Origin: Acidobacteriota bacterium
Lineage (GTDB): Bacteria > Acidobacteriota > Vicinamibacteria > Vicinamibacterales > JAFNAJ01
Assembly (NCBI GenBank): GCA_023384575.1
Contig: JAHDVP010000018.1
Location: 48,449 to 101,827, forward strand
Direction: 5' to 3'
DNA length: 53,379 nucleotides
Part shown: positions 14,516 through 32,219 of the stretch, piece by piece
Layout: every line of letters starts with the position of its first letter
Position numbering within the stretch: the stretch's first letter is position 1
Translations under genes and position numbers: made by a program
The notes under the pieces: model-generated
What the model saw: the letters and a program-made list of their open reading frames with translations, nothing else
Database searches by the model: none
What the model was told of the DNA's origin: nothing

Positions 14516-14592
14516 TGGCGCGCCCGGCAGGACTCGAACCTGCGACCCTCGGCTTAGAAGGCCGATGCTCTATCCGTCTGAGCTACGGGCGC
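14516..14592 (-). tRNA. tRNA-Arg (anticodon TCT), CCA encoded
   Basis: The minus strand folds as a full cloverleaf of 77 nt. The acceptor stem is GCGCCCG pairing with CGGGCGC, the D stem is GCTC/GAGC, and the anticodon stem TCGGC/GCCGA encloses the loop CTTCTAA with anticodon TCT, reading AGA. The T arm is GCAGG-TTCGAGT-CCTGC. The discriminator is G, followed by an encoded CCA at 14516-14518. The rare AGA codon suits a GC-rich genome in which this tRNA is a common integration target. The 3' end abuts the ctaA remnant. Confidence 0.95.
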
Positions 14593-30583: not shown

Positions 30584-31491
30584 GCGGGCACGCGCGTGAT
30601 CCGAACCGGCTGACCGGCCCGTCGGGCGGCCCCTCGGTCGCCGGCGGCTGGCGGCCACGCCGGCCACCGATCCGGCAGGCCCCGGTCCTGCTGCTGGCGG
30701 CGGGCCTCGTGGTGTCGTGCGCGAGCGCGGGGCCGTACACCGTCTCCTGGCCGGCCGACCGGACGACGGCCGTGACGCGCGGCGACTGGATCCAGAGCTG
30801 GCCGCAGGCGGTCTCGTCGATTGCCGAAGTGATGCAGGGGCCGCTCGGCCTGCCGCCCGTGGAGTTCACGGTGCACTTCTTCCACAACCGCCGGGCCTTC
30901 GAGCAGGGGCTCGTGGACGAGGGGTATCCCCCCGCGTTCGCCCGTCGGACGGCGGCGGTGCTCGACGGCATCGGCGGGCCGGGACGGGTTCTGCTCAACG
31001 AAGCGGCAGTGGCTCGCGGTACCTGGTCGGACCGGGTGGCGCTGCTGGCCCACGAGCTCGTTCACGTGCTGCAGTACGAGCTCGGCGGTGGCCATCGGGG
31101 CACGTCCGAGCAGTGGCTGCGCGAGGGATTCGCCGAGTGGGTCGCCGAGCGCGTGCTCGACCACCTGCGGATGGCGGGCGCCGGCACGGAACTGCGCCGG
31201 GCGAAGCGCGTGGTCGCGCTCGCCGGTCCGACGCGGTTCCCGCCGCTGTCGGCCATGGTGACCTTCGACCAGTGGGTCGACCTGCGCACGACGCGCCCCG
31301 CGCTGCCGACGTACGAGTACGCGTTCGTGGCCGCCGACTTCCTCGTCGATCGTCACGGCCTGGACGCGGTGCTCGACTACTTCCGGCGGTTCGCCACGTC
31401 GAGCGATACCGACGGGAACTTCGCGACGGCCTTCGGCGAACCGAGGCGTCAGTTCGAGGAGGCGCTCGTCGCGCAGCTCACCCGCCCTTGA
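30580..31491 (+). CDS. Predicted lipoprotein zinc peptidase, HExxH...E (gluzincin-like)
   Basis: A 303-residue protein with a lipobox-like LVVSC ending at C47 after a hydrophobic run, so it is probably anchored to a membrane by lipid; the 33-residue lead before the hydrophobic run is long. The zinc motif is H158-E-L-V-H162 with the third ligand E186 in GFAEW, as in peptidase-MA-like gluzincins. It overlaps the PlpD-like gene by ATGA, which implies coupled translation and a shared envelope role, possibly maturation of the secreted lipase; that role is inferred. Its last 14 nt overlap the convergent acetyltransferase gene. Confidence 0.8.
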   Translation: MSGHARDPNRLTGPSGGPSVAGGWRPRRPPIRQAPVLLLAAGLVVSCASAGPYTVSWPADRTTAVTRGDWIQSWPQAVSSIAEVMQGPLGLPPVEFTVHFFHNRRAFEQGLVDEGYPPAFARRTAAVLDGIGGPGRVLLNEAAVARGTWSDRVALLAHELVHVLQYELGGGHRGTSEQWLREGFAEWVAERVLDHLRMAGAGTELRRAKRVVALAGPTRFPPLSAMVTFDQWVDLRTTRPALPTYEYAFVAADFLVDRHGLDAVLDYFRRFATSSDTDGNFATAFGEPRRQFEEALVAQLTRP

Positions 31492-32047
31492 CCGCGGGTT
31501 CCGCAGTCCCGCCGCGGGGAAGTGCCGCATCGACCGCGCCGGTGTCCACTGCCGACCTGTCGAGCCGGTAGCACACCACCTTCACGCCCTCGTGGTCGAA
31601 CGCCCGATCGTAGGTCATTGCGAGGCGCGCCATGACCGCGAGCGATCGCCTGTTGGCGGGGCGGGTGATGGCGACGACCCGCTCGAGGTCGAGTCGCGTG
31701 AAGCCGTCCGCCACCGCCGCCCGGGCCGCCTCGGTGGCCAACCCCAGGCCCCACCGGTCACGGGCGAGCCACCACCCCACTTCGATGTCGTCGTGGTGAC
31801 GGAGCGGCTGCAGGCCGCAGAAGCCGACGAAGGCTCCGGAGGCCGTGCCGTAAAGCTTCCAGAAGCAGAAGCCACGCGACGCGTGAAGTGCGCGCTGGCG
31901 TGCGACGAACGCCTGCGTCCGCGCGTCGCTCCAGGCCTCGCCGCCCGTGATGTCGCACATCACGACGGGGTCGGTGACGAGTGGGGTCAGGTACCGCCAG
32001 TCGCCGGGCTCCCAGGGGAGCAGCGAGAGCCTGAGCGTGGAAATCAT
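31478..32047 (-). CDS. GNAT N-acetyltransferase, RimJ/RimL type
   Basis: A 189-residue acyl-CoA-dependent transferase. The start TLRLSLLPW...DW resembles the TxRLxLR opening of RimJ/RimL-type enzymes. Motif A is RDRWGLGLATEA, the pyrophosphate-binding RxxGxG/A loop, followed by ANRRSLAVMARLAM, which normally reads N..S..v..K.GF. The late block matches motif B. The acceptor may be a protein N-terminus or a small molecule; nothing nearby decides. The C-terminus has about 15 residues beyond the fold. It lies 25 nt downstream of the putative selenoprotein frame on the same strand, so the two may be co-transcribed. Confidence 0.88.
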   Translation of the reverse strand: MISTLRLSLLPWEPGDWRYLTPLVTDPVVMCDITGGEAWSDARTQAFVARQRALHASRGFCFWKLYGTASGAFVGFCGLQPLRHHDDIEVGWWLARDRWGLGLATEAARAAVADGFTRLDLERVVAITRPANRRSLAVMARLAMTYDRAFDHEGVKVVCYRLDRSAVDTGAVDAALPRGGTAEPAVKGG

Positions 32048-32072: not shown

Positions 32073-32219
32073 CTACGGCTTTCCGGCCGGGTCTTCGCGT
32101 CGATCCTCGACGCGGCAGGAGTCGCCGAGTCAGGTGGGCACGCCGAGGCGGGGCAGCACCCAGCGCATCAGGGCGTAATAACCAGCGAACACGAGCACGA
32201 CACCGAGACCCTCTGGCAT
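32073..32219 (-). CDS. Candidate small membrane selenoprotein (in-frame TGA at 32130-32132)
   Basis: From ATG 32219 a frame encodes 29 residues: a short start, a single hydrophobic helix (GVVLVFAGYYALMRWVL), then PRLGVPT, and a TGA. The same frame continues through L-G-D-S-C-R-V and 11 more residues to a TAG at 32073-32075. If TGA is read as selenocysteine (U30), the protein has 48 residues with a U30-x4-C35 pair beyond the membrane helix. A SECIS-like hairpin starts 15 nt after the TGA. Read-through leaves 25 nt to the next gene instead of 82. I recall small membrane proteins ending LGVPT-C-x4-C, which would be the cysteine form, but this is unverified. Without selenocysteine machinery it would be a 29-residue peptide ending at 32130. 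Confidence 0.5.
32096..32114 (-). promoter_or_regulatory. SECIS-like hairpin just after an in-frame TGA
   Basis: On the minus strand CGCGTCGA, loop GGA, TCGACGCG forms a perfect 8-bp stem with a 3-nt loop. It begins 15 nt after the TGA, so the loop is 23 nt from it. Bacterial SECIS elements lie directly downstream of the UGA and carry a G at the start of the apical loop about 16-37 nt away. This hairpin fits both rules. No T run follows, so an intrinsic terminator is less likely. Confidence 0.5.

Follow-up and report, generated by a model that had tools for sequence, protein, structure and literature searches.

Eukaryotic SELENOK and SELENOS are small single-pass selenoproteins that carry the selenocysteine (Sec) residue on the polar side of the membrane and contain no catalytic domain. 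In bacteria, bSECIS-dependent selenoproteins such as FdhA and SelD combine an in-frame UGA with a stem-loop just downstream and with the selABCD genes. The bSECIS model quoted in PMC13188914 places a stem-loop after the UGA, with a G at the first or second position of a small apical loop 16-37 nt away. GOS_B (NF041374), DG, DF, CC/Se motif and KCU-star are selenoproteins that were found computationally and are likewise short or domain-less.

The window, the whole stretch of 53,379 nucleotides that was analyzed, contains a frame that resembles each of these systems in part. It shares with FdhA and SelD the in-frame UGA, the adjacent stem-loop, the spacing of the loop G and the selABCD genes, but it encodes only 48 residues with one helix, no thioredoxin-like or enzyme domain and almost no Cys homologues. 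By description, it is similar to SELENOK and SELENOS in having one membrane helix, a polar-side Sec and no catalytic domain, but it is far smaller, its bacterial SECIS lies within the CDS and its Sec directly follows the helix. Moreover, 39 members of its family match none of the NCBIfam models for GOS_B, DG, DF, CC/Se motif and KCU-star, and no sequence relation was found between the family and any listed selenoprotein family.

Sequence comparison makes it highly probable that the window TGA is read as Sec and that the frame is a real gene for a tiny single-pass membrane selenoprotein of an undescribed family. A preliminary description had already presented the locus as a candidate new selenoprotein, and a conserved TGA, an open frame, a co-varying hairpin and Sec machinery in the hosts support that proposal. 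No Pfam or NCBIfam (June 2026) model fits the family at a relevant E-value, and Table 1 of 119 prokaryotic selenoprotein families (PMC13188914, 2026) holds no matching entry; most families that this review takes from Haft and Tolstoy 2025 have NCBIfam models, which were scanned. A literature search on the motif, on acidobacterial, membrane or Sec-only selenoproteins and on DUF302 together with a selenoprotein found no description. The family therefore appears to be undescribed in Pfam, NCBIfam and the 119-family table, although absence there does not prove that nobody has seen it.

The window gene and its relatives

The 48-residue read-through product, MPEGLGVVLVFAGYYALMRWVLPRLGVPT-U-LGDSCRVEDRREDPAGKP, is encoded on the minus strand from ATG 32219 through TGA 32132-32130 to TAG 32075-32073. 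The features of the locus are as follows.

32073..32219, minus strand: read-through CDS with the TGA taken as Sec, ending at TAG 32075-32073; start and frame are common to relatives
32154..32207, minus strand: single predicted membrane helix, approximately residues 5-22, from the sequence; the hydrophobic stretch is kept in relatives
32130..32132, minus strand: TGA, very probably Sec, residue 30; TGA in 79 aligned loci and Cys (TGT) in one, with 88 TGA genomes in the phylum sample
32096..32114, minus strand: bSECIS-type hairpin with an 8-bp stem, CGCGTCGA/TCGACGCG, and loop GGA 32106-32104; indicated by covariation, RNAalifold and shuffles, and missing in the Cys form
32115..32117, minus strand: Cys35 at U+5, which may act as resolving partner; 64/80 loci have Cys at +5 and 4/80 at +6
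31478..32047, minus strand: downstream GNAT acetyltransferase (PF13302), 25 nt past the TAG

The ATG, the helix, the LGVPT stretch, the TGA and the tail to the TAG lie exactly where the preliminary description had put them, as does the 8-bp stem with its GGA loop, which starts 15 nt past the TGA (32114-32096). Read-through was also said to narrow the gap to the next gene, and the distance to the GNAT start (ATG 32047) is indeed 82 nt when counted from the TGA and 25 nt when counted from the TAG. The GNAT gene is not conserved as a neighbour, given that no GNAT cluster occurs among the conserved neighbours of the family. A 120-aa frame from TTG 32492 was rejected as the conserved gene because the start in most relatives falls 28-29 codons ahead of the TGA. 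The only tRNA that ARAGORN detects in the window is a tRNA-Arg (TCT) at 14516-14592.

A single-protein search of 60 related genomes found relatives with TGA as an internal stop, and a genome collection added 32 loci labelled as Acidobacteria, Deltaproteobacteria, Planctomycetota, Rokubacteria, Verrucomicrobia and others. A profile that does not require a stop was then run over 396 Acidobacteriota genomes and recovered 88 strong TGA members and one strong member without a stop, which carries Cys at the site. Roughly one in five of the sampled Acidobacteriota genomes contains the family, as does one in three of the selA-bearing ones. The aligned set consists of 80 loci, 79 with TGA and one with Cys (TGT). 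They share the motif L-P-[RK]-x-G-[VI]-x-T-U before and at the site and M-x-x-x-C-x-[VA]-E-[SD]-R-R in the tail, which is short and polar; the loci were collected by a regular expression in which some of these columns were set in advance, among them U or C at the site. No plasmid relative and no solved structure were found for the family.

U30 and C35 had been proposed to form a redox pair. Most members agree with this arrangement, as counted above, but 12/80 contain no Cys within the first 8 residues after the site, and a U/C redox pair is thus not the general mechanism of the family. The family also lacks the CxxU or UxxC spacing that marks thiol-redox selenoproteins; U-x4-C is the common form, the protein consists of one short helix and no match to a Trx domain was obtained. 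In one sub-group (L019, L020, L022, L023, L026 and L128), U-[AS]-V-P-x-[PA] replaces U-x4-C without a second Cys, and the hairpin tends to lie ~4 nt nearer to the TGA. Two family gene copies, both with TGA and with DUF302 genes nearby, are located ~2 kb apart in L046 (L046:1120 and L046:3088).

Surveys are likely to miss the family because it is short, displays a normal-looking stop and nearly lacks the Cys homologues that homology-based selenoprotein searches rely on. The deep-Sep paper likewise states that families nearly without Cys homologues may be missed. The family thus indicates a blind spot of selenoproteome surveys.

Gene neighbourhood and possible role

What could be the biological function of such a small protein? 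Neighbour genes, clustered using codon-position scoring, provide the main hints. DUF302 (PF03625; TT1751, PDB 1j3m), a partner gene and not a homologue of the family, is the commonest immediate neighbour; it occurs at 26/79 loci, no more than 500 nt away and on the same strand, and often lies directly against the start codon. DUF302 genes are reported to lie inside the sox clusters of sulfur oxidisers (PMC5037610). DUF302 is single-copy in 6/6 genomes searched and lies at the family locus in four of them (G019, G042, G411 and G033). In the genome of the window itself, the sole DUF302 gene is on another contig, and the window gene is solitary and adjoins the GNAT gene. At L053, DUF302 appears to be contained in a much longer frame that ends 99 nt before the TGA. 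Other neighbours of the sulfur or redox type encode rhodanese, MBL-rhodanese, CoA-disulfide-reductase-rhodanese (also near the Cys form), OsmC, thioredoxin and YgaP-like transmembrane proteins, and further neighbours include ArsP, ArsR, universal stress protein and RND efflux parts. These recurrent neighbours suggest a role in the handling of reactive-sulfur or thiol-redox stress.

The predicted helix would anchor the protein and position the Sec just beyond the membrane. The segment from the helix end up to the Sec carries a net positive charge (mean +1.7) and the N terminus is near neutral, which, by the positive-inside rule, suggests that the Sec is on the cytoplasmic side. There, the selenol, often paired with the Cys at +5, would reduce or carry sulfane-sulfur or thiol oxidants at the membrane, with the DUF302 protein, rhodanese, OsmC or thioredoxin-type proteins as potential partners. 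We put forward this combination of a helix anchor, a cytoplasmic Sec and a sulfane-sulfur or thiol-oxidant role with DUF302 and the other partners as a tentative proposal. More doubtful is the broader notion of a previously unseen membrane system, made up of DUF302 proteins and an almost Sec-only single-helix family common in Acidobacteriota and scattered over other phyla, that would deal with reactive sulfur species and in which selenium could hardly be replaced. The family nonetheless gives a foothold on DUF302, which is a widespread family of unknown function.

The selenoprotein might, alternatively, handle metal(loid)s or toxic compounds in cooperation with efflux systems, given that RND pump, HlyD, OEP, ArsR, ArsP permease and P-type ATPase genes are found near some members. 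We regard this role as unlikely, since the most frequent immediate partner is DUF302 and the rhodanese, MBL-rhodanese, CoA-disulfide-reductase-rhodanese, OsmC and YgaP-like transmembrane genes indicate sulfur. In addition, ArsR proteins can also sense persulfides. The selenoprotein could also serve a larger membrane complex, either as a small subunit or in its assembly, with the Sec as a ligand and not as a redox catalyst. This would suit its tiny size, its one helix, the near-invariant LP..G..TU motif and the lack of a second Cys in some members, but no constant large partner gene adjoins the family, and we consider this role rather improbable.

Coding sequence and hairpin beyond the TGA

Decoding of the TGA as Sec, which we favour, is borne out by the sequence that follows it. 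Homologues that end naturally at the LGVPT position had been named as an outcome that would speak against read-through; instead, strong relatives run on in frame with conserved residues. Within 15 codons past the TGA, stops are found in 0/79 members in frame, compared with 29 and 35 in the other two frames. Codons ahead of the TGA have a pN/pS ratio of 0.24, and the five that separate the TGA from the stem have a ratio of 0.21. The tails extend over 17-41 codons and use TAA, TAG and TGA as the final stop in similar numbers. Because TGA also terminates many family members (30/79), genome-wide reassignment of TGA was rejected. The TGA could be an ordinary stop that closes a membrane peptide of 29 residues after LGVPT and leaves a fortuitous hairpin in the 3' UTR, as UGA usually is a stop and about a third of the members also end in TGA, but this is scarcely credible in view of the stop-free frame, the purifying selection past the TGA, the TGT form that reads straight on and the correlation of TGA with selA.

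The SECIS-like hairpin of the preliminary description fits the published bSECIS model and co-varies. In the window, the loop GGA is located 23 nt past the UGA, and the loop G is nearly invariant in the family. For the window alone, synonymous-codon shuffles of the same peptide reach an 8-bp stem at an allowed position in 4% of cases. Across the family, a stem of at least 7 bp with the loop exactly at nt 24-26 is formed by 34/79 TGA members, compared with an expectation of 0.5 and at most 3 in any of 1000 shuffles, in which synonymous codons were shuffled with local usage. The codon choice is similarly constrained: the Ser of the ESR motif is encoded by the locally rare TCT in 23/23 cases (1.7 expected), and the Arg that follows this Ser is encoded by CGA or CGG in 37/38. 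Compensatory double-sided changes occur at 8/8 pairs among 50 sequences. The hairpin cells are paired in 86% of cases, compared with 23-42% when the partners are slid, and the score falls at a one-base slide. RNAalifold, unaided, returned the same helix minus the outermost pair; the folding energy by itself is modestly below that of synonymous shuffles (mean z -0.7). The hairpin is kept with other peptides at slightly shifted positions in several members, including L064, L066, L068, L069 and the L019 group, and is weak or shifted in L117, L062, L063, L065 and L141. Such a bSECIS hairpin would recruit SelB and tRNA-Sec, and the UGA would therefore be read as Sec.

Since the conserved VESRR/VEDRR codons and the hairpin overlap, constraints on RNA and on protein are mixed in this region, and the hairpin might in principle be a terminator or regulatory RNA with the tail conserved as a by-product; this is extremely improbable because the window stem is not followed by a T-run, the stem is retained with the differing peptides listed above, the codons from the TGA to the stem show the low pN/pS of 0.21 and the Cys form has no hairpin, yet retains protein similarity up to Cys+5.

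Selenocysteine machinery and the Cys form

The occurrence of the TGA form correlates with that of the Sec machinery. selA was detected in 83/88 TGA genomes, compared with 169/308 others (Fisher p ~1e-13, a value that is only indicative because the genomes are related), and in 14/14 tested genomes reached via the named collection. Among the five TGA genomes without a selA match, 4/5 have a tRNA-Sec over the cut-off, and three of these also contain selB. In G396 (97% complete; TGA member G396:C184:6872-7006), neither selA nor selB was found and the sole tRNA match falls below the cut-off; this genome represents an exception, an assembly gap or a recent loss of the Sec trait.

A Sec/Cys pair exists at the UGA site. 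The Cys form (L092/L118) contains TGT at this site and no hairpin, and neither selA, selB nor tRNA-Sec was found in its genome (G230, 99% complete). It is thus a natural case of Sec-to-Cys replacement with SECIS loss. The preliminary description had mentioned a Cys form, LGVPT-C-x4-C; one with the C-x4-C spacing does exist, but it reads GIGTC-x4-C and stands alone against 88 TGA members.

The genome of the window (G000, 100% complete) contains all four of selA, selB, selC and selD; the absence of selB/selC had been considered a way in which the proposal might fail. It encodes one tRNA-Sec, which scores 61.8 bits (Rfam cut-off 47) and is identified by ARAGORN as tRNA-SeC with the anticodon UCA. 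The selA match reaches 529 bits. selB is split over two contigs, with the N-terminal part at a contig end (314 bits over the cut-off) and a C-terminal match on another contig. Two selD genes are present (L149, G000:C14, and L150, G000:C50), and one copy has a single in-frame TGA, translated as SACAG-U-AGK, which corresponds to a U-x-x-K Sec site and is followed by a strong hairpin. Given the sel machinery and this Sec-type selD, the organism very probably decodes UGA as Sec in other genes too, as far as its gene content indicates. The second selD lies in a 773-residue frame and is apparently fused to an oxidoreductase-like domain.
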